Source: Histomonas meleagridis
Taxonomy: Eukaryota; Parabasalia; Tritrichomonadida; Dientamoebidae
Assembly: GCA_020186115.1 (NCBI GenBank)
Contig: WSYJ01000015.1
Location: 77,501 to 141,500, forward strand
Direction: 5' to 3'
Length of the DNA: 64,000 nt
Shown: one piece after another, positions 1 to 60,035 of the stretch
Layout: each line of letters starts with the position of its first letter
Position numbering within the stretch: position 1 is the first letter of the stretch
Notes under the pieces: generated by a model
Databases searched by the model: none
Told to the model about the DNA's origin: nothing
The model's input: only the letters and a program-made list of their open reading frames with translations
Position numbers and translations under genes: made by a program

Positions 1-1284
1 CTATGGATATTTTTTTAGTTGATTTTATTTTTGTTCAACTAATAATTTTCTATTTCAAAATATTTTTTGGAAATTTTTAAAATTATTTGATACAGCATTA
101 AGAATTGCATCTAAAGGGGGATATATAAAAATAGTTAAATTGCTTCTTGAACAAGAAGGAATTGATGTTAATGCTAAAAATATTTATTTGTTTTATTTAA
201 AATTTATTTAAATAATTTTGGATATCAAAATAATATTTGGAAATTATTCGAAATATTTCAAACAGCACTTATGGGTGCATCTAAAAAAGGTTATACAAAA
301 ATAGTTAAATTACTTCTTGAACAAGAAGGAATTGATATTAATGCTAAAAATATTTATTTGTTTTATTTAAAAATTATTATAATAATTTGATATTTCAAAA
401 TAATATTTGGAAATTATTTAAATTATTTAAAACAGCACTTATTTATGCATCTTGGAATGGTCATACAGAAATAGTTAAATTACTTCTTGAACAAGAAGGA
501 ATTGATACGAATATAAGAGATGAAGTTTGTTTAATTTAATTAAAATTTATTTTAATAATTTGAAATTTTGAAATAATATTTGGAATTTATTGAAATCATT
601 TAGAACAGCACTTATGAATGCAACCATCTTCACTTTTATTAAAATAATTAAATTACTTCTTCAACATGAAGGAATTGATACTAATGTTAAAGATATTTAT
701 TGATTCTATTTTGGATTTATTTAAATAATTTTGGATATAAAAATAATATTTGGAAATTATTCGAAATATTTAAAACAGCACTTATGCGTGCATCTGAAAA
801 AGGTAATTTTGATATCGTTAAATTACTTCTTGAGCAAAAAGGAATTGATATTAATGCTAAAGATATTTATTTGTTTTATTTGAAATTTATTTTGATAATT
901 TAATATTTCAAAATAATATTTGGAAATTATTTAAATTATTTTATACAGCACTTATGTACGCATCTTTAAATGGTTATACAGAAATAGTTAAATTACTTCT
1001 TGAGCAAAAAGGAATTGATATTAATGCTAAAGATATTTATTTGTTTTATTTGAAATTTATTTTGATAATTTAATATTTCAAAATAATATTTGGAAATTAT
1101 TTAAATTATTTTATACAGCACTTATTATTGCATCTTATAATGGTCATACAGAAATAGTTAAAATACTTCTTGAACAAGAAGGAATTGATATTAATGCTAA
1201 AAATATTTATTTGTTTTATTTAATATTTATTTTAATATTTTGAAATTTCAATGTAATATTTGGAAATTATTAAGGTTGTACTCC
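1..1284 (+). repeat. Ankyrin cassette array A1 (about 7 units, 170 bp period)
   Basis: Seven ankyrin-coding cassettes run in the plus direction. The codon for the T of the TAL motif falls at 92, 262, 432, 605, 775, 945 and 1115, so the period is 170, apart from one interval of 173. Each cassette reads as one ankyrin repeat (TAL..AS..G.TEIVKLLLEQ.GIDINAK). An 80 nt AT-rich spacer with in-frame stops follows. Spacers and coding parts are about equally similar between units, and the units at 885-1040 and 1055-1210 are nearly identical, so expansion is recent. The array is cut at the window edge and ends in unrelated sequence near 1275. It is probably the tail of an ankyrin gene that starts to the left. 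Confidence 0.85.
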
Positions 1285-6356: not shown

Positions 6357-9300
6357 TCAACCGAAATCAGTTACCACAGCTGATGACAGTAGAATATGTT
6401 CGTCAATTTCAGCTCTTAATCTTCTATTCTTTATATTTTTCTTATATAACAGCACAGAAACCACAATAATAATTGCGAGAAAAACAATTGCGCAAATTGT
6501 TACTCCAATAATTATTCCTTTTTGATCTATTTTTGTATCTTTAGTATAAATGCAAACGTCATAATAATTATTTGGTTCAATTGCAAGAATTTGATTCCAT
6601 TCCTTTGTGTTGTTGATATTATAATTATTATAATTCTTAACATAAGGTAAACATAGTGTAATATCATAAACTAAATGCCCATTTTTATTAACTTTGCTTC
6701 GATTCGTATTTTCAAACACTTTGGAATTAAAGTTTGGAGGATGATCTGGAAATGATAAAATTGATAATGATGAACAATTTTCAAAAATATATATTGAATC
6801 TGATTGAACTGTATGTAGCAAAGGTAAGTGTATAAACGAAAGGGAAGAACATCCTTTGAAATTAGAATCTCCTTCGATTTTAAGTAAATCTTCAAACATT
6901 ATCGTTTTGAGTGATTTACAATTTTCGAATGAATTACTTTTGATCGTTTCCAAACTTTTCAATTCGATCGTTTCGAGTGAAACACAATTGAAAAATGTAA
7001 ACTGTTCAATTGTTACAACGTTATTAAGCGAAACATTTTTTATACTAAAGCAATTTGCAAAACAATATGAACCAATTTCTTTAACTTTATTTAAGTTAAC
7101 TATCAATAAACTTGAACAGTTTTCAAATGCTGATGATTCAATAGTTAAAACGTTTGGGAAAGAAATATCAATTAATGAAACGCAATTCCTAAATGAATTT
7201 TCTCGAATTAATTCCAAATTTGGTAAATTAACAATTTGTAAATTAATGCAATTTTCAAATGATGAAATTCCGATTGATGATATTTTATCAAAAGAAATAC
7301 AAATTAATGAAACGCAGTTTTTAAATGAATTTTTATCAATTGTTTCTATATTTGGTAAATAAAGATTTTGTAAATTTATACAATTTTCAAATGATGAAAC
7401 GCCAATGTAAGAAGCATTAGTATAAACATTTATAAGTGAAATACAATTTCTAAATGAACTTTCATCAATTAATTCTAATTTTGGTAAATCAACATTTTGA
7501 AGATTTTCACAACTTTCAAATGTTGAAACATTAATGTTAATAACATTCTGGAAATCAATGAATTCAATTGACGAACAATTTCTAAACGCGTTTTCGCCAA
7601 TTCTTTTTAATTTTGGTACATAAATATCTTCCAAATTAATACAATTTTCAAATGTTTGTTGTTTGATTTCAATTAAATTGCTTAAGGAAATTGATACAAG
7701 ATTTTTACATGATTGAAATACATGATCATTAAGTGATTCGATAATATCATTATTAAAATACTTTATGTTAATACAATGACCAAAACATTTCGATCCAATT
7801 ATTTTTAGCTTCGGAAAATCAATTTCTTGAATTGATGAATTCAGAAAACATTCATTTCCAAGCTTTTCGACATTTGAAATATTTAATTCTTTAAGATTAA
7901 ATTGATTCATAAAACATCTATCTCCAATTTCACGTAAATTATTTGCAATAAAACTTGTTAAAATTGTTCCTTTAAAAACTTCTTTTCCAAGATATTCCAA
8001 ATTTGATGATTCGAAATTCACAAAGTTAAAACAATATTGGAAAGCGAAATCATTACAAGTTTTTAATGATGGAAAATCAGTACCTCTAACATTAGTTCGA
8101 TAAAAAGATGAAATTCCGACATATTCTAAATATGGAAATTTCGCAGCCAAATTTAATGTATTATAAAAACATTTATCACCAACTTTTGTGGCATTAAATT
8201 CTATATATTGTATTGTTCCAAGTGGTGATATAAAACTCGTATTTTCAAAACATGAATTTCCATATTCTTTACAATTTGGAATATAAATTGTATCAATGTT
8301 TTGATTTGAAAATAAATAATTCGATGCAAATTCTAAACTGATCATATAAAAGTTTTGGATTGAATTTTGCCCTTGAAATAAAGAACTTTTACATTTTGTT
8401 AATTTTGGTGCGTCAAATGTTAAAAGTGAAATACATGAAGTAAATACATATTCTCCTGCTTCAATAAGATTAGGAAAAGAACAATTTTTTAAGTAAATAC
8501 ATTTTTCAAATACTTTATCACCGATTATTTGAACATTTTGTAAATTAACTGAAGAAAGTGATAAACAATTAGAAAATGCTAATTCATCAACAAAGATAAC
8601 ATTCGGGAAATTAATTGTTCTTAAATCACAACAAAATGAAAATGCAGAAATTCCAATGTTTTTAAGCACTGGTAATTCGACACTGTTTAAATAAATACAT
8701 TCAGTAAAACAATCTTTTGAGCAATTTTCGATTTTTGGAAAGGAAATATATTTAAGGTTTTCACAATGTGAAAAACAACCTTCTCCAATATTTAATACGC
8801 TTGAACAATGAATATATTGTAAATTGGAACATGATTTAAACGCAAAATTACCAATTTCTTTAACATTTTCTCCAAAATCAATTGTTTCTAAATTAGTACA
8901 TTTAAGAAATACTTCATCTTTAATTGTAATTACTGAATTCGGAATAATAATTTTCGTTAAAGATTTACAATAAGAAAATGCTTTAGTATTAATAGTTTCA
9001 ATAAAGTCACTCATTATAATTGTTTCTAAATTATTACAATTTAAAAATGCAGAATTTCCAATTGAAGTAACTGAGTTTGGAATTGTAATATTTATTAATG
9101 ATGAACAATCCACAAACATTGAATTTGAAATTGAAGTGATTGAATTTGGAATTATTAATGTTTTTAATGAAGGACAACCTTGAAATAATGAAACGCCTAT
9201 TGATGTAACAGAATCTGGAATAATAATCTTTTCTAATGATGAACATTTTAGAAATACTCGATTTCCTATTGAAGTTACTGAATTTGGTATATTAATATTT

Positions 9301-10673
9301 GTTAATGAAACACATGAATAAAAAGCAGATTCTTCAAATGATGTTATTGAATTTGGAATTGTAATATTTTTTAATGAGGTGCAAATAGAAAATGTATTTT
9401 CTTCAATAGTTTCTATTTTTTCGCTTAATATTATATCTTCCAAATTTGAACAAGAATAAAAAGCATAACTTTTGATTGATGTTACAGTGTTTGGGATTTC
9501 AATTTTTATCAATGAAGTACATTCATGAAATGATTGATATTCAATTACTTCTAAATTTTCACTTAAATTTATTATTTCTAAATTAGAACATTTATAAAAT
9601 GCTCTTTCATCAATCAAAGTAATTGAATTAGGAATTGTTACTTTAGTTAATGAAGAACAATAAAAGAAAGAACTTTTTTTAATTGTTGTTATTGAATTTG
9701 AAATTTTAATATTTATTAATGATGAACATTCAGAAAATGCAGAATCACCTATTGATGTAACAGAGTCCGGAATTATAATATTTGTTAATGATGAACACTC
9801 TGAAAATGCATAAGAACCAATTGAAGTAACAGAATTTGGAATGTTAATATTTTCTAAAGAATTACACTTAGTAAACATTTGATATCCAATTATTGTTAAT
9901 GAATTCGAAATTGTAATTTTTCTTAATGAAGTGCAAGAATAAAATAAAAATTCCCCAACTGTTTCTAATTTTTCTCCTAAAATAACACTTTCTAATTTCG
10001 AACACATGAAAAATGAATCAGTACCAATTGAAGTTACAGAGTTTGGTATTGTTATAGTTTTTAATGAAACACAAGAAAGGAATGATAATGCTTTAATTGT
10101 TTCCACATTTTCTCCAATAATAACTTTTTCTAAATTGGAACATCGAGAAAATGATCGTAAGTCAATTAATAAAACAGAATTTGGAATTATGATTTCTTTT
10201 AATGAAGAACATATAGAAAACGAAGAATTAGAAATTGTTGTGATTGAATTTGAAAGTGTTATATCTGTCATTGAGGTACAATGATAAAATGCACCATCTA
10301 AAATTGAAGTAACTGAATCTGGAATTTTTACCTTTTTTAAGGATGTACAATGCTGAAATGCATGTAGTTGGATGGTTTTTAAGTTTTCACTAAATATAAC
10401 AGTTTCGAGGTTTGAACATGAAGAAAATGCAAATTGTTCAATTGATAATACAGAATTGCCAATGTATGCTGATATAAGATTACTCCATAGTGTAAAACTC
10501 TTTTGTGGAATTAATGTTACTTCTCCGTCAATGATAAGATATTTTGTTAAGCCTTGATATTCTCGTGTAAATTCAGACTCTTTGGTAATAACCAACGTAC
10601 TATTGCTTTCAATAAAGAGAGCTTTTACATGATTTGTCAGAATGGAGAAGAAAAAACAAAAAATGGAGCACAT
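6357..10673 (-). CDS. BspA-like leucine-rich-repeat surface protein
   Basis: A single ORF of 1438 residues. The N-terminus (MCSIFCFFFSILTNHVKA) looks like a signal peptide. Most of the protein is dozens of LRR_5 / BspA-type repeats of about 23 residues, with the pattern IPNSVTSIG..AF..CSSL. The central part is more diverged (for example F.NCISL and LPNLELI repeats). Near residues 1381-1405 there is one hydrophobic membrane segment (IIIGVTICAIVFLAIIIVVS), followed by a short basic cytoplasmic tail. BspA-like proteins form a very large family in trichomonads; some are surface-exposed and linked to adhesion. The ATG follows directly on an initiator-like TCACTA. Plus-strand ORFs inside it are shadows of the repeats. 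Confidence 0.93.
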   Translation of the reverse strand: MCSIFCFFFSILTNHVKALFIESNSTLVITKESEFTREYQGLTKYLIIDGEVTLIPQKSFTLWSNLISAYIGNSVLSIEQFAFSSCSNLETVIFSENLKTIQLHAFQHCTSLKKVKIPDSVTSILDGAFYHCTSMTDITLSNSITTISNSSFSICSSLKEIIIPNSVLLIDLRSFSRCSNLEKVIIGENVETIKALSFLSCVSLKTITIPNSVTSIGTDSFFMCSKLESVILGEKLETVGEFLFYSCTSLRKITISNSLTIIGYQMFTKCNSLENINIPNSVTSIGSYAFSECSSLTNIIIPDSVTSIGDSAFSECSSLINIKISNSITTIKKSSFFYCSSLTKVTIPNSITLIDERAFYKCSNLEIINLSENLEVIEYQSFHECTSLIKIEIPNTVTSIKSYAFYSCSNLEDIILSEKIETIEENTFSICTSLKNITIPNSITSFEESAFYSCVSLTNINIPNSVTSIGNRVFLKCSSLEKIIIPDSVTSIGVSLFQGCPSLKTLIIPNSITSISNSMFVDCSSLINITIPNSVTSIGNSAFLNCNNLETIIMSDFIETINTKAFSYCKSLTKIIIPNSVITIKDEVFLKCTNLETIDFGENVKEIGNFAFKSCSNLQYIHCSSVLNIGEGCFSHCENLKYISFPKIENCSKDCFTECIYLNSVELPVLKNIGISAFSFCCDLRTINFPNVIFVDELAFSNCLSLSSVNLQNVQIIGDKVFEKCIYLKNCSFPNLIEAGEYVFTSCISLLTFDAPKLTKCKSSLFQGQNSIQNFYMISLEFASNYLFSNQNIDTIYIPNCKEYGNSCFENTSFISPLGTIQYIEFNATKVGDKCFYNTLNLAAKFPYLEYVGISSFYRTNVRGTDFPSLKTCNDFAFQYCFNFVNFESSNLEYLGKEVFKGTILTSFIANNLREIGDRCFMNQFNLKELNISNVEKLGNECFLNSSIQEIDFPKLKIIGSKCFGHCINIKYFNNDIIESLNDHVFQSCKNLVSISLSNLIEIKQQTFENCINLEDIYVPKLKRIGENAFRNCSSIEFIDFQNVININVSTFESCENLQNVDLPKLELIDESSFRNCISLINVYTNASYIGVSSFENCINLQNLYLPNIETIDKNSFKNCVSLICISFDKISSIGISSFENCINLQIVNLPNLELIRENSFRNCVSLIDISFPNVLTIESSAFENCSSLLIVNLNKVKEIGSYCFANCFSIKNVSLNNVVTIEQFTFFNCVSLETIELKSLETIKSNSFENCKSLKTIMFEDLLKIEGDSNFKGCSSLSFIHLPLLHTVQSDSIYIFENCSSLSILSFPDHPPNFNSKVFENTNRSKVNKNGHLVYDITLCLPYVKNYNNYNINNTKEWNQILAIEPNNYYDVCIYTKDTKIDQKGIIIGVTICAIVFLAIIIVVSVLLYKKNIKNRRLRAEIDEHILLSSAVVTDFG

Positions 10674-10679: not shown

Positions 10680-11159
10680 AAGAACGTTTAAAATAAATTT
10701 ATGATGAGACTATTTGCAAGAAAAGATTCCATTAGATGCACATTAAGTTAAAAACATATACAATGACTTCATTTTGGAATTTATAATTAACTTACTAATC
10801 TCCTAACTTTCACTGATTTTTATTATTTGATACTACATGAATTTTTAAATTTAATTTTCCTAGAACAAACCAATAACTTTGGATATGTCTTTACACAAGT
10901 CCTAGGTATAAATTAAGAAATTATCAAGATTCAATTGAATTAAAATTATCTTCAGGATTAACTCACATCCTAAGTTACTGCAAACGTGCTTTTCAAAACA
11001 GCTTCTATATTTTAAAATAGGAAAATACTCTTTTTTTATTGAGCCATAAAAGATCCATGCTTTTAGAAAAATTTAAACATGTATCTTTATTATTGATTGT
11101 CTTTTATTACAATGTGGTCATTTTCCTTTTCACGAAGAAGTAACTTAACGATTTTGGTA
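10680..11159. other. Intergenic region between BspA-like gene and ankyrin array B
   Basis: AT-rich, no ORF or RNA recognised. The part from about 11100 is the degenerate 3' end of the last ankyrin unit of the minus-strand array. Confidence 0.5.
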
Positions 11160-14100
11160 AAACCATTTTCTGAAGCATGAATAAATGCTGTTTTATATAA
11201 TTATACTAAATTCCAAACATCACAAGCAAATATAAAATTATTGAAAAAATATTTAATAAAAATGAATGATCGTCCTTAATTTTTGTGAGTGTTTTTTCAC
11301 TTTTTAGAAGCGCTTTTACAGTTTCAATATCGTTGTTTTTTGCTGCAATTATAAGTGCTGTTTTAAATTTAATAATAAAATTCCAAATACTTTGTTGAAA
11401 CATAAAAAAATTACAAAAAGCTTTCAATCAAACGAATAAACATCTACAGCATTTACATTGATATGTTCTTGCGTAAGAAGTAATTTAACTATTGAAGTAT
11501 GCTGAAATTTTGCTGCCAACATAAGTGCTGTCTTAAATTTTTTGTTGAAATTCCATATGTTTTTGTAAAACAGAAAACATTTACCAAAAACTTTCAATCA
11601 AACAAATAAACATTAGCAATATTTAGATAAAGTTTTTTATGTATAAGAAATGAATTAACAATTTCAACATTGCCAGATTTTATTGCCCACATAAAGGCTG
11701 TTGTAAATAATTTCATTAAATTCCAAATATTTTATTGAATTACTAAATAGCAATAGAAAATATTGATTCAAACAAACGAATATCTTTATCATTAATGTTA
11801 ATCTTATTTTGTTTAAGAAGTAGTTTAGTGGTTTTTATATTATTGAATTTAGATGCTAAAATAAGTGGTGTTTCAAATTAACGAATGGAATTTTAAAAAA
11901 TATTTTGATACATTAAATTTTAATATGAAATTTTAAATGAAATTATTAAATATTTTTTTGATTTATATCACCTTTTTGTATAAGTATTTCAACAACTTCA
12001 CTATAATCATTTTTGGATGCTAACATAAGTGCTGTTTCAAATTAATAAAAGAAAACCCATAAAATAATTTAATACATCAAATAAATATATAAAATATTAT
12101 GAATAATAATAAAACATTTTTTGCATTAATATCAATTTTTAGATTAATAAGGAATTTAATAATTTCAATATGATTATTTTTGGATGCTAACATAAGTGCT
12201 GTTTCAAATTAATAAAAGAAAACCCATAAAATAATTTAATACATCAAATAAATATATAAAATATTATGAATAATAATAAAACATTTTTTTCGTTTATATT
12301 TATACATCTTTGCTTCAGAAGTATTCCAACAACTTCACTATAATCATTTTTGGATGCTAACATAAGTGCTGTTTCAAATTAATAAAAGAAAATCCATAAA
12401 TTATTTTAATACATCAAATAAATATATAAAATATTATGAATAATAATAAAACACTTTTTGCATTAACATCAATATTTAGATGTAAAAGAAGAGACATAAC
12501 AACCTCTTTGTATCCTTTATTTGATGCTATAATAAGTGCTGTTTCGAAAAAATTGTATAATTATCATATTATCATTTGAAATATTAAATAATTAAATTAA
12601 AAATTAAATATCAAAATTAAACATTTTTTGCATTGATATCAATTCCTTTTTGTTTAACAAATGAATAAACAATTTCATCATAATTATTTTTAGATGCTAA
12701 CATAATTGCTGTTTCAAATTATTTAAATTAATTCCAAACATTTATATAATACATCAAATAAGAATGTGAAATTTTATAAATATTAATAAAACATTTTTTG
12801 CGTTAATATCTATTCCTTTTTGCTTGATAAGTTTATGAACAACTTTGATATGACCATTTTTAGATGCTAACATAAGTGATGTTTCAAATCAATCATCAAA
12901 AAATCAAAAACTAATATGAAATATTAAATAAAAATATGAGGTATTATAAATAATAATAAAACATTTTTTTCGTTTATATTTATCCCTTTTTGCTCGATAA
13001 GTATTTCAACAACTTCGATATAACCATTTTTAGATGCTAACATAAGTGCTGTTTCAAATTAATAAAAGAAAATCCATAAATTATTTTAATACATCAAATA
13101 AATATATAAAATATTATGAATAATAATAAAACATTTTTTGCATTAACATCAATATTTAGATGTAAAAGAAGAGACATAACAACCTCTTTGTATCCTTTAT
13201 TTGATGCTATAATAAGTGCTGTTTCGAAAAAATTGTATAATTATCATATTATCATTTGAAATATTAAATAATTAAATTAAAAATTAAATATCAAAATTAA
13301 ACATTTTTTGCATTGATATCAATTCCTTTTTGTTTAACCAATAAATCAACAATTTCATCATAATTATTTTTAGATGCTAATATAAGCAAAGTTTCAAATC
13401 AATTGAATGTATATTATGTAATATGACGGAACATAAAATAAAGGAATTTTAATTTGTAATGAAATAAATAAAAATTCTTAATATTAATCCCAATATTATT
13501 TTGTTTAAGAAGTTTTTTAACAATTTTAGTATGTCCAAATTCTGTTGCTAACATAAGTGCAGTTTCATATCATTTAAATTAATACCAAATATTAATTTTG
13601 TACATCAAGCAAATGAAGTAAATTGCTAATAAAGGAAATCGATATTCATTGCATTTACATCAGTTTTCTGTTGTTTAAGAAGTAATTTAACAACTTCAGT
13701 GTAACCATTTTGTGATGCAATAATTAATGCTGTATCAAATGAAATAAATTACTTTCAAGATATCATATGATATATCAAATTAATGAAATAAATATCAAAT
13801 AAGATAATTTTATATTTTTTTGATTTATATCTACATCTTTTTGCTCAAGAAGTAATTTAACAATTTCACTATTATGATTTTTAGATGCCAATATTAATGC
13901 AGTTTCAAATCAATTTAATAAATATTAAATATTATTTTGTAACATCTTCTTTATGTAATAAATACTAAACAAAATAATTTTATATTTTTTTGATTTATAT
14001 CATATCCTTTTTGTTGAAGAAGGACTTTAGTAATATCAGCATGATCATTTTTAATTGCTAAAAGTAATGCATTTTCAAAATAATTTAATAAATATTGAAT

Positions 14101-16775
14101 ACGAATTTGAAATATTAAATTTTATGTATAAATTTTAATCATAATTAATTAATATTATTAACCTTGAAATCGAGATCTTTTTTTTCAAGAAGTACATTAA
14201 CAATATCGCTATGACCATTTTCAGATGCAATCATTAAAGCAGTTTCAAATTTTTCGAAAAAAAATTAAATACTTATTTAAAACATTACAAAATCGAATAA
14301 GACTTCAAATAAAATATAAATATATTTTGTTCATTAATCTTGATGTTATTTCTGTTAAGAAGTAAAATTACAATTTCTGTTTGATGTTGTATAGTTGCGA
14401 TAATAAGTGCTGTATTAAATTCATTCTTCAAACTCCGAGTAATAGGATGTTATATGAAATAAATGAATGAAATTTTAGATAAATCAAATAAATATTTTTC
14501 AAATTAAGATCAATTTTTTTTTGTCTCACAAGTAATTTCACTAAGTTTCTATAACCATGATCTGATGCTATCATAAGTGCTGTTTCAAATTAATTCTAAT
14601 AATTCCAAATATTAATTCGAAATAATAAAAAAATAATATAAATTTCGATTTAAATAAATATATATTTTGAGTATTTATATCTAAATCTTTTTGTTTGAGA
14701 AGAAATTGGATAATATCCATGTTATTATTTATTGATGACAAAAGAAAAGATAAAGAAAATTTTAAAAATAAACAGTAAAAAATTAATTTATACGTGAAAT
14801 ATATTAAATCTATTTCGAATTAAAAAAGTAAATACCTTTATCATTAAGTTTGATTGTATTTTGTTCAAAGAGTAATTTTATGATATCAGAATGATTATTT
14901 TCAGATGCCATAATAATTGCCATTTTATATAACAGGATTAAATAATAAATATTGATTTAGAATATAAAGCATATTAAATTAACTTCTAATAATGCAATAA
15001 GATATTAATGATAAATGGCTCAATAGTTTTTTGTTGAAGAAGCAATTCTATGATTTTTTTATATCCTTTCTCCGAAGCTAAAATAAATGCTATTTTAAAA
15101 GACACGAATAAGCAACGAATATAAATATCATATAATAAATGAAAGAATAAAATTTCTTATAAATTAGAAAAACATTTCTAATACTTTCGGTTAAATTATT
15201 TTGCTTAAGAAGAAATTTAATCATATTTTTATTCCCTATTTCTGATGCATAAAAAGCAACTATATGAAAAAATATTAATTAATATTCAATAATATTTTGA
15301 TATATTAAGAAATATATTCAAATATAATACAAAACAAAAAAACATACTTATCATATGAATCAAATCTTTTATGTTCAATAAATATTTTTACAACATCTAT
15401 ATAACCGTTTTCAATTGCAAGTTTAAGGGCAAAATCGAATAATCAAAATGAATTCCAATCATAAGTTTAAAACATTAAATTATTATGTTTAATATTAATC
15501 ATAATAAATGAATATTTTTTGTATTAATATTTATATTCTTTTGATCAAGAATTAATTTCACAATTTCACTGTGACCATTTTTAGATGCCAATATAAGTGC
15601 TGTATCAAATTAGTCAGATAAAATCCAGAAATTAATTTAGTACATAAATTATATTTGTAAAACTTCAAATCAAATGATGAAAAATTTATTGTATCGATTT
15701 GTATATTTATTTGTCTAAGAAGCAATTTTATACATTCATTGTGATCCTTTTCATATGAGGAAAGAATTGATGCTTTAAAATTCCATAATAATCCTTAAAT
15801 ATTAAAACAAAGCATGAATTTGAAATTAAACATCCTATACAAATAAAAAAATAATTTTGAAAAATGGACTTTATATTTTTTATAATCTTGTATTAACTTA
15901 CATATTGCTGAAGGTATATAATACGATGCCAACATAAATTGTTTTTCAAATAATAAAAGTTAATATATAATAAAATTATAAAACTTTTTCCTTTTTCCTT
16001 GAATTTTTATATTTTTGTTTGACGTAGAGATCAATATCCTTTCTCGAAGGGAAATTTGATCCGATCATAAGTGCTGTAAGAAACAAATATGATAAATACC
16101 AAATATTGTATTGAAGCTTGATACCATTTGAATTAATTTCAATAAAATCAAAGGAAAATTTTGTATATTAACATCAATGCTTCTATTCTGAAGAAGTGAT
16201 TTGACAATATCATGATTACCTTTTCCCATTGCATACATAAGAGCTGTTTGTAATTATTATAATAAATTCCGATTATTACTTTGAAACATAAAATTATTAT
16301 AAATAATATTATATGAATATAACAAACACTCACTTCATTGATATTGATATTTTTTTTTAGAAATAATTGAACAATATCAGCTTTACCAACATAAGAAGCA
16401 ATCATAAGTGCTGTCTCAAATATTATAATTGATTTCCAAATAATATATCGAAACAAAAAAACATTCAAACATATTTTTTAAAATATAAATAAAAATTTTG
16501 AGAATTAATTTCTATGTTTTCTTGCTTAAGAAGTAATTTAACAATGTTAATATTACCACACCAAGCTGCAAACATAATAGCTGTACAAAACATCTAATAA
16601 AAATTCCAAAAAATAATAATTTTAAATATATAATAAGTAAAATAGACACCAAGATATCAAAAATATCATCTTTTTCATTAACGTTAATCTTTTTTGCAAG
16701 AAGTTTATTAAGAACACGAATATTGCCGTTACAGGTCGATTCAATAAGTGACGCAAAGTCAAATTTTATATTGAA
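11160..16775 (-). repeat. Ankyrin cassette array B (about 34 units, 170 bp period, minus strand)
   Basis: Reading the minus strand, about 34 ankyrin-coding cassettes follow one another. On the plus strand the marker TGCTGT, or its variant, falls at 11186, 11356, 11526, 11696, 11866, 12030, 12197, 12367, 12537, 12707, 12877, 13047 and on to 16749. By hand count about 26 of 33 intervals are exactly 170; the rest are 133, 164, 167, 168, 171 or 173. Each unit has about 28-30 open ankyrin codons and then an 80 nt AT-rich spacer that usually contains stops. The dozen units I translated are all open, even strongly diverged ones such as 14748, 15088, 15258, 15428 and 16749. No N-terminal ankyrin-gene domain is found upstream of 16775. 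No continuous ORF is possible because 170 is not divisible by three. Confidence 0.85.
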
Positions 16776-20996: not shown

Positions 20997-23255
20997 TCAC
21001 AAATAATGAATGAATGAGCTCAGTGCCTGATTTGGGCTTTCATTATTTAAAGTGTTTTGACAAAAGTCGGCCAATTTTTCAGCATAAATTAAAGGCAATG
21101 GAACTCTTAATGATTTATCACTCCCGAAGTAACAACAAGTTAAATAATATGTTAACATTACTAAGTGATCATCATTCCAAATATGAGGCAATTGATGTAT
21201 TATTGTATACTTTGTCGGATTTATAGTTCCTTCTTTTGATATCAAATAAAATTGAGCATAATCGTTTACAGTTATTTTATCATATACAATTGTTCCTGTT
21301 TCAATATTATCCCCAAACAATCGAACGCTATTTCTTTTTTCTACCAAACAATAAACAAGTGATATTCCAAATTCTGCAATTGCTTTAATTTCATTCTCTT
21401 TTAATATATCTATAGTTAAACTTGATTTCCTATATACAACAATACGATTAAGAGATGATTCCGAATGTTTTCCATAAAAATCAATTGCTTTCTTAAAGAA
21501 ATCTTTTATGTCTTTACTTGATATGATATTTGATTCATCAAGTTTATATGTTTGGGAATAATATCGAGAAAATGTAAAATCATATGAAGCGGTCATTGCG
21601 CAAACATTTGTTGTTGAAGAAATTCCAATAACCATTGTATGTTTAAGAGGAAGTGATTCTGGTGAAATATAATATGGAATTCCTCCTGTTTTAGCAGTAA
21701 TCTGAAACATTAATTTAGTTAAAAATTTTGAATCTGCATCAATAATATTTTCTTTTATACAAAATTGTGATGGAATTCCAAGTTGAATAGTTAAAAGTTG
21801 CTTAAGTGACTCATATAAATTTTTATTATATTCATGAAAAATTATTATAATAAAAGAAGGAGTTCCATTGTGTACGATATATTTAATTATTTCTTGTGAA
21901 TAATTGTTATTATCAATAGATTTCACAGAAATAACATCTGGGTATTGCATATTAACATTTGTTTTATTCGAAGTTTCAATAAAATTGTTTAAAAAAGTTT
22001 GTTTCTTGTCATCTTTAAATGAATCAGGTATTAAAATAAGTGGTTTCGTAATTAAGTATGGTGAAATAGCTACAGCGCAATGATCCATAATTTTATTCTT
22101 TTCATTATATTTTAAAGAAAATTCTTTATGATCAATTTGTTGTGTTCTACATTTTAATAATGGTGATGGAAGAACATTTGCTTTGATTTCAAAACTTTTC
22201 CCGATTATTATTCCCCATTTCTCAAGTGATTTATTTATTTTATCAAGAAATAAATATGGATCACAAGTTTTAAACTCATTAATTTTATTCTTAACTAATT
22301 GGTCTTTATTTTCAGCTTCTGTTAATCCAGAAATCATTAAAGATGATGCAGGATAATAATCCGTTCGATTAAATGATATAGATTCAATAATAATATCATC
22401 TTTACGAACATTAAAATTATAAACATCTAAAAAATAATCAGCAACAGATACTTTCTTCTGTTCATTATTTATGAAATATTTTTGTGATGGATGAATATCC
22501 CAATTAATATTAGAAATAGTAATTTCTCTTTGGAATTTAGAATGAATTGTTAATATATTCATATTTTTTAAAGATGTTAATAAATCTTGTCGTTGTTCAA
22601 GATTAGTAATTCCAGATTTAATGAAATCATAAAGAGTTCCAATGCGATCAATTCGATAAGTTGGTTTAAAGATAAGAGAAACGCCGCCTTTTAATAAAAC
22701 TAAAAGTGAAGTGAATCCGTACGTTAAAATAAACGTCGATATTCGTTTTGAGATGGAAGTATCAAACCATTTAGTTTTAAGGTGTGAAAACTTGTTGGAA
22801 TAATAAGCATTGAGAAGTGCATTATCACAAACACTGAGAAGTGATTTACCACATTTACTTGTGATTTGTTTGATCTGTTTAATTTTAACATTATAAATTT
22901 TGGTCGAATTTTGTGGATATTCAATCGAATTTTCACACTCAAGATCAGGGAGTGATGAAAAAAGTATTGATTTCCCATTATAAAGCATAGTTGCCCACTT
23001 TTGATTTTGTTTTTTCTTACCACCTTCTGGACAAAATGTTAAAAATAAGATATTAATAGCTGTATTTTGATTTGACATTTCTGGATCAATTTCTACTGAA
23101 TATTCAAATAAATTAAAATTATCTTGGAATGTGATTGGATAAACATTTGCATGAATTTCAATTATACTTCCAGCAGCTACATTAAATTCTGGTGGAATTT
23201 CTTCATCAAAAAATTTACGTCGGATTTGATCTTGATTTTCTTCTCCAATCTCCAT
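20997..23255 (-). CDS. Piwi-type Argonaute, apparently slicer-dead
   Basis: A 752-residue protein with Argonaute architecture: N-terminal region, PAZ, MID, PIWI. The PAZ domain (roughly residues 220-340) has the Piwi-clade pattern NINWDIHPS ... VSVADYFLDVYN. MID has GIPSQF. PIWI (roughly 560-752) has LTKLMFQITAKTGG, MVIGIS, RIVVYRKSS, GTIVYDKIT, INPTKYT, and RVPLPLIYAEKLADF. Piwi proteins bind small RNAs and silence transcripts or mobile elements. Three catalytic positions are replaced: Asp of VIG(M)D is Ser, Asp of VVYRD is Lys, and His of PTHY is Lys. Target cleavage is therefore unlikely, while guide binding may be kept. The start at 23255 is preferred because the longer frame begins with TTG and runs through the AAAAGTGACA box seen before other genes; an ATG at 23297 is the alternative. 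Confidence 0.85.
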   Translation of the reverse strand: MEIGEENQDQIRRKFFDEEIPPEFNVAAGSIIEIHANVYPITFQDNFNLFEYSVEIDPEMSNQNTAINILFLTFCPEGGKKKQNQKWATMLYNGKSILFSSLPDLECENSIEYPQNSTKIYNVKIKQIKQITSKCGKSLLSVCDNALLNAYYSNKFSHLKTKWFDTSISKRISTFILTYGFTSLLVLLKGGVSLIFKPTYRIDRIGTLYDFIKSGITNLEQRQDLLTSLKNMNILTIHSKFQREITISNINWDIHPSQKYFINNEQKKVSVADYFLDVYNFNVRKDDIIIESISFNRTDYYPASSLMISGLTEAENKDQLVKNKINEFKTCDPYLFLDKINKSLEKWGIIIGKSFEIKANVLPSPLLKCRTQQIDHKEFSLKYNEKNKIMDHCAVAISPYLITKPLILIPDSFKDDKKQTFLNNFIETSNKTNVNMQYPDVISVKSIDNNNYSQEIIKYIVHNGTPSFIIIIFHEYNKNLYESLKQLLTIQLGIPSQFCIKENIIDADSKFLTKLMFQITAKTGGIPYYISPESLPLKHTMVIGISSTTNVCAMTASYDFTFSRYYSQTYKLDESNIISSKDIKDFFKKAIDFYGKHSESSLNRIVVYRKSSLTIDILKENEIKAIAEFGISLVYCLVEKRNSVRLFGDNIETGTIVYDKITVNDYAQFYLISKEGTINPTKYTIIHQLPHIWNDDHLVMLTYYLTCCYFGSDKSLRVPLPLIYAEKLADFCQNTLNNESPNQALSSFIHYL

Positions 23256-23261
23256 AAGAGT

Positions 23262-23271
23262 TGTCACTTTT
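23262..23271 (-). promoter_or_regulatory. AAAAGTGACA box upstream of the Argonaute gene
   Basis: Identical ten-base box, 6 nt before the preferred ATG. It decides the start choice: the longer reading frame would have to translate through it. Confidence 0.5.
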
Positions 23272-23473
23272 ATATCATAGAATTTTTTGGTGTTCATCAA
23301 AAACAAAATATTGTTTCCAGAAAAGAACAATTTTAAATAATTTTCTCATACAAATAATTCTTGAATTTATGCGGTTACAACATAGCATAAAATATTAAAA
23401 AGTAAATTTTTAATTGATTTATATTCTTTTTCATTTTAACATTTTTATTTTATTATTGAAAAAGTAGACTTTA

Positions 23474-24288: not shown

Positions 24289-24424
24289 AATTCAATTGTA
24301 ATTGAAAAAACAATTCTATGTGATCTGTCAAAACTATCAAAAAGTTTCAAAAAAAATTAATTTGGGGTTGGAATTTCTTGCGCAAACCCAACAAATAATT
24401 TTAGGGTTAAACAAAAGCAATGTT

Positions 24425-25564
24425 ATGCAATCGGCGAATATAATAATAAAAAAATTTAAAGCTGTTTGTCCATTATCTTTTAATATAATTATCAGCAAAA
24501 TGATTTATACTTCATTCGTTATTAGAGTAAATGATACTTCTATTTGCTTCTCTTTTTTGAAAGAAAATGAAGCGTTTGAAGAAAATAATAATATTAGTTC
24601 AAGAATTTTCGATGTATTCTCACTTATTCTTTTCAAAGACAATAAACACCATCTTGAATCAAGCTGTCTTATTGATAATATGATTGAACAAAATTTAATT
24701 AATAACAATTTTGTTAAGAACAAAAAGATTTCATATATTGTCCAAAAACTCACTCTAGGAACTGATTCTTTCATATTTAAAGGTATTACATTCAAATATA
24801 ATGAGTATGTGATATATAGAAATCTCATTGAAAATTTTAACCAACTATCAAAGAACAATTGGGAACTTCATAATAATTTAATTAAAGAAGGAGTTAATCC
24901 AAATGAAATTGCAAAAATAATACGAAATGATGAAATAGGAAAACTTCAAGAAATATCATCACAAGCGAATTTTAATTTTAATCAAACAATTGAACCATCA
25001 TTTTATGAAAGATGTTCATTTATTATTCAAATAAATGTTACATTAATTGATTATGCAGCATTTTTTGGATCAATTAAATGTTTTAAATATTTACTTGTAA
25101 ATGGTGCAACCTTAGAAAATACAGGTAAATATGCAGTTGCAGGTGGAAATGAAGAAATTTTTTATTTATGTTTACAAAATCATTCATCTTTTAAAGATGT
25201 GTATGAAACAGCAATTAAATTCCATAAAAATGATATTTTTAAATATATTTATGAAAACAAAATTATTGAAAATTGTGATTTAGAAGATTTAGGAAAGAAA
25301 TGTATTCATCATCATAATTTTGATCTTTTTTTATATTTGCAAGAAGAAGGAATGAAAATTAACAATGTTATTATAAATGAAGCAGCCAAAGATGGAAATA
25401 TTTTTATTGTTGAATATTTTCTTGAACTCAATCAAATTCCAAGTGATATTTTAGTTTTTTCTTCAGAATCAGAAAACATTGAACTTGTTAGATATATTTT
25501 AGATCAAGGAAAAATTAATGTCAATACAAAAAATATTTATATCTTTTCATTAAAATATATTTAA
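24425..25564 (+). CDS. Ankyrin-repeat protein with trichomonad-type N-terminal domain
   Basis: The ORF gives 379 residues from the first in-frame ATG. The open frame extends upstream only to a TTG at 24302. Residues 1 to about 160 form a diverged N-terminal domain. A conserved block follows: IIRNDEI.KLQEISSQ.NFNFNQ...S.YERCSFI....TLIDYAAFFGSIKCFKYLL. This is the layout of the DUF3447-type ankyrin proteins that are very numerous in trichomonads. Degenerate ankyrin repeats continue to INVNTKNIYIFSLKYI, where the frame ends inside the first spacer. Four ankyrin cassettes follow in array C, so the ORF is probably only the first part of the functional unit. The same family is found at 58416. A partner or function cannot be inferred. 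Confidence 0.8.
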   Translation: MQSANIIIKKFKAVCPLSFNIIISKMIYTSFVIRVNDTSICFSFLKENEAFEENNNISSRIFDVFSLILFKDNKHHLESSCLIDNMIEQNLINNNFVKNKKISYIVQKLTLGTDSFIFKGITFKYNEYVIYRNLIENFNQLSKNNWELHNNLIKEGVNPNEIAKIIRNDEIGKLQEISSQANFNFNQTIEPSFYERCSFIIQINVTLIDYAAFFGSIKCFKYLLVNGATLENTGKYAVAGGNEEIFYLCLQNHSSFKDVYETAIKFHKNDIFKYIYENKIIENCDLEDLGKKCIHHHNFDLFLYLQEEGMKINNVIINEAAKDGNIFIVEYFLELNQIPSDILVFSSESENIELVRYILDQGKINVNTKNIYIFSLKYI

Positions 25565-26215
25565 ATAATTTGAAGTTTCAAAATCATATTTGAAAATATT
25601 TTAAATTATTTAAAACAGCACTTATGAAAGCATCTGAATATGGTCGTACAGAAATCGTTAAATTACTTCTTGAACAAAAAGGAATTGATATTAATGCTAA
25701 AGATATTTATTTGTTTTATTTAATATTTGTTTTAATAATTTAACATTTCAAAATAATATTTAGAAAATTTTTAATTTATTTAGTACAGCACTTATATATG
25801 CAACTGAAAAGAAACATATAGCTGTGGTTAAGTTACTTCTTAATCAAAAAGAAATTGATGTAAATGCCAAAGATGTTTGTTAGTTTTATTCAAAAATTAT
25901 TTTAATAATTTGAAGTTTCAAAAAAAATTATGGAAATTATTTGTGTAATTTAAAACAGCACTTATGACTGCAGCTGAATGTGGATGGACAGAAATAGTTA
26001 AAATGCTTCTTAGACAAAAAGGAATTAATAAAAATGCTAAAGATGATAATATGTATTATTTAATGTTTGATTTATTTTTTTATAATTTCAAAATAATATT
26101 TGGAGATCATTTATAATATTTATAACTGCAGCTCAATATGCAATGCGAGATAATCATTATAAAATTGTTAAAACAATTATTAATCATAAGGTAAATTATG
26201 CTAAAAAATAAACTT
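25565..26215 (+). repeat. Ankyrin cassette array C behind the ankyrin gene
   Basis: Four ankyrin cassettes continue downstream of the ORF, with T codons near 25614, 25784 and 25951 and a last degenerate unit near 26125. The first two spacers are exactly 80 nt and closely match those of array A1. The first three units are open over the ankyrin codons; the last is shortened. Confidence 0.8.
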
Positions 26216-27649: not shown

Positions 27650-27929
27650 ACGGTTATTTTGGCAGGGATTTAACGGTCGTTTTTCGGGGATTTTGTTTTG
27701 GGGGATATAGCTCATTTACATTGTGTTAAAATGTTAAAAGTTAGGAACGCGAAACAATGTCTTGGCAAATAAAAGATTATTGAATGTGTTTTTTATTATT
27801 CTGAGATCAATGAATCAACGAATTAAGATATCTTTTTTAATTAAAATATGAGCAATTTTTACAATAAAAAGATTCTTTAAAATGATCGTTTCTGCCTTAA
27901 GCCTTAATAATTTTATATATGTTTTCATA

Positions 27930-28425
27930 ATTTAGAATATGTTTTAATAATTTAGAATATGTTTTAATAATCTGGAATATGTTTTAATAATTTGTAATAT
28001 GTTTTAATAATTTAGAATATGTTTTAATAATTTGAAACAGCACTTCATATAGCAGTTAGAAATAATAATATAGAAATAGTAAAATTACTTTTAGATAAAG
28101 GAATTGATGTTAATGCAAAAACTATTCATTTTAATAATTTGGAATATGTTTTAATAATTTAGAATATGTTTTAATAATTTGTAATATGTTTTAATAATTT
28201 AGAATATGTTTTAATAATTTGAAACAGCACTTCATATAGCAGTTAGAAATAATAATATAGAAATAGTAAAATTACTTTTAGATAAAGGAATTGATGTTAA
28301 TGCAAAAAATATTCATTTTAATAATTTAGAACATGTTTTAATAATATTTGACAATTCAAATCGCACAACAAAATGGTTACACAGATTCTATTGAATATTA
28401 TATTATTAGATCACAAAAAAAATAA
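27930..28425 (+). repeat. Ankyrin cassettes embedded in a 20 bp minisatellite (array D)
   Basis: A tandem 20-mer of the type GAATATGTTTTAATAATTTA runs from about 27932 to 28035. Then comes an ankyrin cassette (28037-28125, TALHIAVRNNNIEIVKLLL and on to GIDVNAK), then four more 20-mers, then a near-identical cassette, then a decayed unit to about 28425 (TIQIAQQNGYTDSIEYYI). The spacer between the two good cassettes is 100 nt (18 + 4 x 20 + 2), one 20-mer more than the 80 nt spacers elsewhere. Confidence 0.85.
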
Positions 28426-58349: not shown

Positions 58350-58415
58350 ATGTTTTTGTGTGCTGATTTTTGTGTGATATCTCAAAAAGTGCATTTTGGT
58401 TCATCGTTTGAAATT

Positions 58416-59549
58416 ATGGGAAATAGTTCCAGTAAAGAGGTCATGCAAAAAAGTGTTGACCAATCATTTACTTATGTACTTCCGAAATTTATGCAAAATT
58501 TGGAATATCTTGAAGAAATTATTTTTAATTTGAACGAAATTAACATTTATGAATCTATCAGTGCAACCATGAATGTAATAATAGATGATGGTATACATAA
58601 TTTCTCAAACTTGATTTTAAGTCAATTAATATATTCAGCAATTGTTTTGCAAATGAATAATTTTAAATTATATATTAATTTCATGAAACAAATTGAAAAT
58701 AAAGAAAAAGAATTTAACATAAGTAATAATGAATTGATCAATAGATTTAAAAATTTTCTTCTTAACATAGACTCACAAGAATCATATTTTATTCTCGAAA
58801 GGATGATTGAATTGGGAATGGTTTCCTCAAAAACAGTTGATAATAAAAATAATTTTTATTTTGCACATCATTTTCCGAATAAACCAACAAATGTTTTGAA
58901 GGTGCAATATGAATCTTATAATTATCATGATGAAAGTTATGAAGAACTTTCAAAGAATGATTTTGAACGACATAAGAAATATGTTAAAGAAGGAGTTAAT
59001 TCAAGTAAAATATCAAAAATAATTCGAAATGATGAAATCGAAAAACTTCAAGAAATATCATCACAAAGTAATTTTAATTTTAATCAATCAATTAAACTAT
59101 CACTTTATGAAAGATATTCTTTTATTAATCAAGATGATATTGCATTAATTGATTAGGCATCATTTTTTTCTGCAGAAAAATGTTTTAAATATTTACTTAT
59201 GAATGGTGATAAAATGGAAAATACAGGTAAATATGCAGTTGCAAGTGGAAACGAAGAAATTGTTCATTTATGTGGGCAAAATCATTCATCATTTGAAGGT
59301 GCATATGAAGCAGCAATTGAATTTCATAGAAATGATATCTTTCATTATATCTATGAAAATAATTTAGAAAAAATCGAAAGTTTGCGTCAAAAGTTTGGAT
59401 GTATGCTCATGTATTATGGTATCGATCAATTAGGAAACTATTGTATTTTCTATGATAATTATGTATTTCTCTTTATATATATTTATGAAAATATTATTGA
59501 AGAAATTCGAGTGAGTTTATTGAAAGGCTTTCAACTAATAAATTTATGA
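58416..59549 (+). pseudogene. Ankyrin protein gene with one premature stop, probable N-myristoylation site
   Basis: Paralogue of the gene at 24425. The frame is open from an ATG at 58350, but the downstream ATG at 58416 gives MGNSSSKEVMQK, a textbook N-myristoylation start, so it is preferred. The conserved block IIRNDEIEKLQEISSQSNFNFNQSIKLSLYERYSF reaches ...ALID and then a TAG at 59154-59156, where the paralogue has Tyr (LIDYAAFF). The same frame goes on at once: ASFFSAEKCFKYLLMNG...KYAVASGNEEIVHLCGQNHSSF...AAIEFHRNDIFHYIYENN. After about 59400 the similarity decays to a stop at 59549. A single nonsense change, readthrough or a sequencing error would explain the TAG. The gene is followed by degraded cassettes. 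Confidence 0.7.
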
Positions 59550-59559
59550 ATATTAAGAT

Positions 59560-60035
59560 ATTTAACTATTTACTTGAACAAAAAGGAATTGATATTAATG
59601 AGAGAGATTTTTATTTGTTTTATTTGATATTTATTTTAGTAATTTATGATTACAAAATAATATCTGGAAATTATTAAAATTATTTAATACAATACTTTTT
59701 AAAATAATTCATAATGAACATGCAGAAATAGCGAAATTACTTTTTGAACAAAAAGGGATTGATATTAATGCTAAAAATATTAATTTGTTTTATTAAATAT
59801 TTATGCTCATCATTTTATGTTTCAAAATATTATTTGGAAATTATGAAAATTATTTCAAACAGCACTTATGATGGCATCCAAATGTGGTTATACAGAAATA
59901 ATTAAATTACTTCTTGAACGAAAATGAATTGATATTAAAGCTAAAGATATTTATTTGTTTTATTTAATACCCATTTTAACAACCTTATATCCCAAAATAA
60001 CATTTGGGATTTATTTTAATTATTTTAATCGCTAA
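59560..60035 (+). repeat. Degraded ankyrin cassettes (array E)
   Basis: Three plus-strand cassettes with T codons near 59520, 59690 and 59860 (period 170). The spacer after the first (59607-59687) is again 80 nt. The third has a TGA in place of a GGA-type codon at about 59925, so it is dead. From 60036 to 60421 no gene is seen; a small GGCATGG...CCATGCC hairpin is present near 60300-60320. Confidence 0.75.

Follow-up and report, generated by a model that had tools for sequence, protein, structure and literature searches.

How an array of ankyrin units separated by stop-bearing DNA could encode a protein is the question raised by a 64,000-nt stretch of the Histomonas meleagridis genome (assembly GCA_020186115.1, contig WSYJ01000015.1, positions 77,501 to 141,500; hereafter the window, in whose coordinates positions are given). 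On its minus strand, at 16775-11160, the initial annotation had described 34 ankyrin units spaced by 170 bp in about 26 of 33 intervals, with rigid 80-nt spacers and an open frame in every unit translated, and had taken the openness of diverged units to imply selection on a joined product. We propose that the spacer is the ankyrin loop itself, interrupted codon by codon. In these H. meleagridis genes, about 29 uninterrupted core codons per repeat would be followed by five codons (D-x-x-G-x) parted by AT-rich inserts of 17 nt, and the inserts are probably removed before translation, likeliest from RNA and without GT-AG signals.

A 29-residue ankyrin profile matched 45 places above 12 bits within the window and gave no match above 8 bits on the reversed window. 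In the array it recovered 29 units, and five more were recognised by eye (16754, 16077, about 15944, 15773 and 15263), giving the 34 units claimed. Unit-to-unit spacing was 170 bp in 27 of the 33 intervals (26 when the first unit start is set to 16749), 167 bp in three, and 137, 171 and 164 bp in one each; the two intervals flanking the unit near 15944 are approximate because the start assigned, 15940, misses the reading frame, which begins at 15944. No in-frame stop was found across 28 codons in each of 33 units (all but the one near 15944), which bears out the open frames and supports the idea of a selected, joined product. The 27 loops with a spacing of exactly 170 bp, read in one fixed register with no fitting, gave five codons spaced 20 nt apart, with Asn or Asp at codon 1 in 24/27, Gly at codon 4 in 16/27 and no stop among the 135 single codons, here called micro-codons (examples are DKYGK, DNSGT, NEYGD and NADGE). 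GT..AG ends were found in none of the 108 inserts of these loops. A fitted parse placed four inserts in 31 of the 33 intervals, three of the 33 loops being ones to disregard owing to the misplaced starts 16749 and 15940. The repeat arithmetic is 170 = 34 codons + 4 x 17, and the earlier expectation that an excision of length 2 mod 3 would restore a continuous protein holds for a total of 68 nt, with 34 residues per repeat. The rigid single spacer has to be replaced by five codons, the canonical glycine included, parted by four 17-nt inserts. A single 80-nt intron was rejected on account of the codons inside the spacer, and the option of micro-open reading frames leaves those codons unexplained.

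The parse was extended to the window together with 20 further 10-kb loci (designated L with a number), chosen from DUF3447 matches and hence not random; all 20 hold at least one ankyrin unit, and four 10-kb loci at round coordinates gave one unit each in two cases and none in the other two. The spacer consensus of 152 distinct 170-bp units is periodic at 20 nt. In a fixed register of one codon plus 17 nt, codon 1 is Asp or Asn in 136/152 units, codon 4 is Gly in 110/152 (GGA 86, GGT 16, GGG 7, GGC 1) and codon 5 is mostly E, N, D, K, W or Y, with no stop among 760 micro-codons. All 28 micro-codons starting with TA encode Tyr, hence the third base is coding, which leaves exactly 17 nt for the insert at that point. 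Read in this way, the loop codons spell the ankyrin D-x-x-G-x ahead of T-A-L, in agreement with the ankyrin consensus D-x-x-G-x-T-A/P-L. The 3' ends of the inserts are mostly ATTT. The ACAG of the core was correctly assigned to the coding part by the initial annotation: by weighted counts over the 152 units, its A is replaced by T in ~21% and its G by C in ~14%, giving ACT (Thr) or CCA (Pro) codons, and a 3' splice site at this ACAG was rejected because A or G is replaced in part of the units. Within the cores of 241 units (those below 35 bits left out), frame 0 holds 6 stops vs 661 expected by shuffling, with 500 and 1,226 in the other frames, the 6 being an undercount because the profile that picked the units penalises stops.

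The lengths of the spacers provided further evidence. In an alignment of 219 spacers to the 170-bp profile that presupposed no inserts, the length was unchanged in 179, and the commonest changes were -17 (10), +1 (9), -20 (7), -14 (3) and +3 (3), with a single +20. Parsing the same spacers with inserts of 16-18 nt allowed gave 849 inserts, 819 of 17 nt, 12 of 18 nt and 18 of 16 nt; this narrow peak resembles that of ultra-short introns as a length class, not as an identity. The 153-bp class (10 units, three of them mutual copies) has one insert fewer and keeps five codons, as in D-S-S-G-N, H-E-Y-G-K and I-R-N-G-D, while the 150-bp class (7) lacks one insert and one codon, the 173-bp class (3) has one codon more, the 171-bp class (8) has an insert of 18 nt, and the one 190-bp unit carries an additional insert and codon. 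A single 137-bp case reads N-S-Y-G-D with two inserts, at a low score and with one insert of 18 nt. Of the 219 parses, 14 do not exceed 10 bits (among them six with a core indel, one with the only two stops, two of 153 bp and the 137-bp case); without them there is no stop in 1,029 micro-codons, and 188 of 205 loops have five codons. Loops elsewhere have 5, 3, 2 or 0 inserts with their codons mostly kept. Successive loops of L041, read by hand, have 4, 3, 0 and 4 inserts, the insert-free one running unbroken as QNNRGKCAL, and L040, which adjoins a DUF3447 match, has the insert-free loops DDIDRSAL and DFFNRTPL. At the level of sequence, constancy of length and loss of inserts without loss of codons confirm the parse. 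A differently built ankyrin gene was seen on the plus strand of L015 (5550-6500), where spacings of 269, 122 and 272 nt suggest interruption in another way.

Variation and constraint fall where an ankyrin protein would place them. Among 368 unit pairs of 84-97% identity, residues differ in 78%, 84% and 84% of pairs at x2, x3 and x5, in 81% at position 10 and in 74% at position 13; D1 (44%) and G4 (47%) are intermediate, and T6, L8, L22, L24, N31 and K33 differ in 0-3%. Micro-codons of close units frequently differ at two or three bases, and inserts differ at ~9% of sites in the 84-90% identity bin (337 pairs). The ratio of non-synonymous to synonymous change (dN/dS), a check that the initial annotation had proposed, was calculated between paralogous repeats and came to 0.82 for cores and 2.6 for micro-codons over 1,127 pairs of 78-97% identity, pairs that are not independent and a method that ignores base composition. 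By that ratio the predicted cores are not strongly conserved overall; their framework residues are. Synonymous difference per site is 0.188 in micro-codons and 0.200 in cores, non-synonymous difference 0.394 vs 0.168, and insert divergence (0.133) lies below the core synonymous value. On these figures, the loop codons look diversified by selection and the inserts seem constrained. Hypermutation aimed at the micro-codons is unsupported, given that their excess over cores is only non-synonymous.

Designed ankyrin repeat proteins (DARPins) vary at positions 2, 3, 5, 13, 14 and 33. The array repeats are like them in having variable surface positions, but the variation here is natural, position 33 is constant, and inserts flank every one of the variable loop codons. 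That the varied positions of each DARPin repeat are the surface ones is stated in the available text of PMC8683736. Trichomonad ankyrin-repeat/DUF3447 proteins share the loop D-x-x-G-x-T-A-L, the 34-residue repeat and the DUF3447 first exon with the arrays described here, in which, unlike in those proteins, inserts separate the loop codons.

The layout also resembles that of genes (Table 1). A long DUF3447 first exon (24302) enters an array, and at 26125 and 11191 arrays terminate with a core and then a stop codon; first exon and terminal core with stop together suggest that these are genes, and making protein from them would require the 17-nt inserts to be removed or skipped. The alternation of codons and inserts, its constant lengths, the loss of inserts without codons and a pattern of constraint and variation in cores and micro-codons that is like a protein's can be read directly from the DNA. 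From these we infer a step that removes the inserts, and removal from RNA is preferred because frameshifting fails for nearly half of the spacers and bypassing would proceed without matched codons or structure. The inserts would then be ultra-short intron-like elements outside the GT-AG class, recognised by their length, AT-richness and weak ends (R...ATTT), and the resulting protein would form a solenoid built of 34-residue repeats with the variable loop codons facing a ligand. Candidate machinery exists in a 2,333-aa frame with a Prp8-type domain and in two RtcB ligase genes (G000:C118 and C40), the latter noted without any claim.

Table 1. Interrupted ankyrin arrays of the window, with one core and loop given in full
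Positions	Strand	Feature
11160..16775	-	Array of 34 units: cores of ~29 codons (T-A-L ... N-A-K) and loops alternating single codons with 17-nt inserts
11275..11361	-	Example core, 29 codons, TALIIAAKNNDIETVKALLKSEKTLTKIK
11272..11274	-	First micro-codon of the example loop (D-K-Y-G-K): GAC (Asp), ankyrin position 1
11255..11271	-	First 17-nt insert of this loop
11252..11254	-	Second micro-codon of this loop (Lys)
11235..11251	-	Second 17-nt insert of this loop
11232..11234	-	Third micro-codon of this loop (Tyr)
11215..11231	-	Third 17-nt insert of this loop
11212..11214	-	Fourth micro-codon of this loop: GGA, the ankyrin glycine
11195..11211	-	Fourth 17-nt insert of this loop
11192..11194	-	Fifth micro-codon of this loop (Lys); next core starts at 11191
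11090..11191	-	Last array unit TAFIHASENGFTKIVKLLLREKENDHIVIKDNQ, then stop; probable terminal exon
40..1271	+	Sister array; loops NKWGQ, NKDGK, EKEGR, DWWGK, DENGY, DENGY, four 17-nt inserts each
24302..25531	+	Sister gene, long DUF3447/ankyrin first exon; last repeat (25445) enters the codon-17 loop N-K-E-E-K
25532..26124	+	Same sister gene (24302): three cores (25615, 25785, 25955) and four loops, four 17-nt inserts per loop
26125..26211	+	Same sister gene (24302): TAAQYAMRDNHYKIVKTIINHKVNYAKK, then stop; probable terminal exon
27900..28400	+	Satellite of near-identical 17-nt inserts split by variable codons, containing two cores; the loop between these, T-G-R-V-R-E, has five inserts
59519..59945	+	Sister array, loops DDMGN and NNYGQ; core at 59859 has an in-frame stop

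A satellite subfamily, found at 28 kb in the window and in L037-L039, carries the same alternation to an extreme. The insert ATATGTTTTAATAATTT recurs in 150 of 168 inner elements, and 38 loops have 3 to 15 inserts each, the search having demanded exact 20-nt spacing and so missed further loops. Relative to the consensus, 34% of codon positions vary vs 0.7% of insert positions, and none of 244 codons is a stop. The first 1,100 bases of L037 hold a DUF3447-like first exon that is apparently truncated and fused to a 20-nt satellite run. Across the 43.28 Mb of genome searched, a two-element satellite pattern matched 1,495 times vs 0 in the reversed control, and a 33-nt loop-end pattern with up to three mismatches 3,852 times vs 0 in the control. 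Of the 247 units already known, the latter pattern detected 76; of its 86 matches in the non-random sample, 77 lie at a recognised unit and 9 elsewhere. Dividing 3,852 by the detection rate suggests, as a rough estimate, ~12,000 loops in the genome, with inserts several times more numerous. A search of the window and L009-L036 for DNA resembling the spacer gave 280 matches, 13 of them off recognised units (E 4e-8 to 0.84). The exact loop-end and satellite patterns had no match in the virus collection (viral_contigs), nor did the exact loop-end pattern in the prokaryote collection (genome_contigs).

Very short introns are described from Stentor coeruleus (15-16 nt) and Trichomonas (type B, 23-28 nt), mostly or always with GT/GU-AG ends according to the available text of two papers (PMC9505925, PMC12316389). 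The inserts are like these introns in being very short, sharply peaked in length and inside nuclear protein genes, but differ in their ends, in the single-codon exons and in the four loop positions that repeat along the array. A 71-nt intron-like element, GTATGT...TCTAACACACAG, lies on the minus strand of L031 in a frame judged kinase-like from its motif. Both signals of canonical trichomonad introns (GTATGT...ACTAACACACAG) are present in this element, whereas neither whole signal was seen in the ankyrin inserts. CTAACACACAG has 11 occurrences in the genome vs 4 in the control.

Several observations weigh against the removal of inserts from RNA or against the parse beneath it. Three-nucleotide exons between 17-nt introns would be sterically hard for a spliceosome. 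As the initial annotation had said of the locus, the usual signals are absent: none of 608 inserts in register is GT..AG, and the trichomonad ACTAAC branch site fused to the 3' end was not found in the inserts. Register 3 of the 20-nt period is also free of stops and registers 1, 4 and 16-18 have few, so the absence of stops cannot by itself fix the register, and the argument lies in the residues and the length classes; in satellite loops many registers are stop-free since the insert is so constant. The cores have six in-frame stops, itself an undercount, and a dN/dS of only 0.82. No DUF3447 first exon was seen in the translations upstream of the array at 11160-16775, which may be a truncated member; together with this, the stops in cores and at 59154-59156 indicate that some copies may be damaged. 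The latter stop is the only one to break a DUF3447-type first exon at 58350-59549.

Among the alternatives, programmed ribosomal bypassing survives best, and we consider it unlikely. The inserts would stay in the mRNA and the ribosome would hop 17 nt about four times per repeat, to which a nearly fixed insert length would be suited. Phage T4 gene 60 is the familiar case of translational bypassing. Like that gene and the mitochondria of Magnusiomyces capitatus, the arrays have short inserts within otherwise continuous protein genes, but they are nuclear, and their inserts are fixed at 17 nt, in tandem with one codon between, and lack matched codons. Magnusiomyces bypasses 81 short inserts, several without perfectly matched codons, as given in the available part of PMC5009743. 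Here, however, the take-off codon equals the last triplet of the insert in only 8 of 608 cases (shuffled mean 10.3), no extra RNA structure was found in the 60 of 152 spacers sampled (mean z -0.13 vs shuffles), and a single protein from the array at 11160-16775 would take more than 100 hops. Codon-matched and structured bypass were rejected on the first two of these results, which weaken an option listed by the initial annotation.

Slightly less likely still are silent cassettes, in which unexpressed interrupted arrays would pass cores or single codons by recombination into ankyrin genes that are expressed and free of inserts. Insert-free ankyrin stretches do occur, the near-identical satellite inserts would supply homology, and the differences of two to three bases between micro-codons of close units would fit such exchange. 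However, no close insert-free recipient appeared among the 150 candidates scored out of 8,932; in the matches listed from these, identity to the consensus is 41-66% at no-insert length and up to 86% for two-repeat matches with extra length, and the long first exon is joined directly to the array. Removal at the DNA level, as for the internal eliminated sequences of ciliates, would suit inserts that are short, AT-rich, length-constrained and inside coding sequence, but the inserts are present in the sequenced DNA and a separate somatic genome is not known in parabasalids, which makes this very improbable. A dead repeat with left-over open frames is harder still to credit: damaged copies, the AT-rich satellite look and the core dN/dS speak for it, but the scarcity of core stops (a count biased as noted above), the stop-free micro-codons and the fact that residues vary or stay constant where an ankyrin repeat would lead one to expect speak against it. 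The chance that overlapping open frames of the spacers are linked by -1 ribosomal frameshifting is practically negligible, since 164 spacers have a length of 2 mod 3 and such frames, present in 88 of them, are absent from the other 76, nearly half, and 21 of the 25 spacers needing no shift contain a stop, on which ground read-through of in-frame spacers was rejected as well. Removal of 17-nt inserts before translation thus stays our preferred reading; the observation made by the initial annotation is confirmed and its interpretation partly supported.

Further ankyrin arrays in the window, all on the plus strand, lie at 40-2197, 25445-26211, about 27900-28400 and 59519-59945. Neighbouring genes encode actin, a BspA-type leucine-rich repeat protein, transketolase, Argonaute, DUF3447/ankyrin proteins, a kinase, ribosomal L10 and Raptor_N, which fits a trichomonad. 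The Argonaute gene (20997-23330, minus strand) has PAZ and Piwi domains. The BspA-type frame (6357-10673, minus strand) has 1,438 residues and is open throughout, and so this repeat gene lacks such frame-breaking inserts.

No description of such inserts was found in the available excerpts of the literature searched. For the virulent H. meleagridis assembly, the accessible text of PMC8529796 gives 43.4 Mb, 28.66% GC and 573 introns with at most one per gene, and in an annotation of this kind a large gene family may go unseen or be truncated. If our reading is correct, the organism would either splice without GT-AG, on 17-nt introns around 3-nt exons, or possess another nuclear system of removal or skipping. 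Tentatively, and at a little short of an even chance, single codons would act as separate exons, in about ten thousand loops and with tens of thousands of 17-nt elements removed outside GT-AG, as exchangeable one-codon cassettes facing a ligand in an antibody-like repertoire. The variability of the loop codons points to an extensive set of binding proteins in this poultry parasite.

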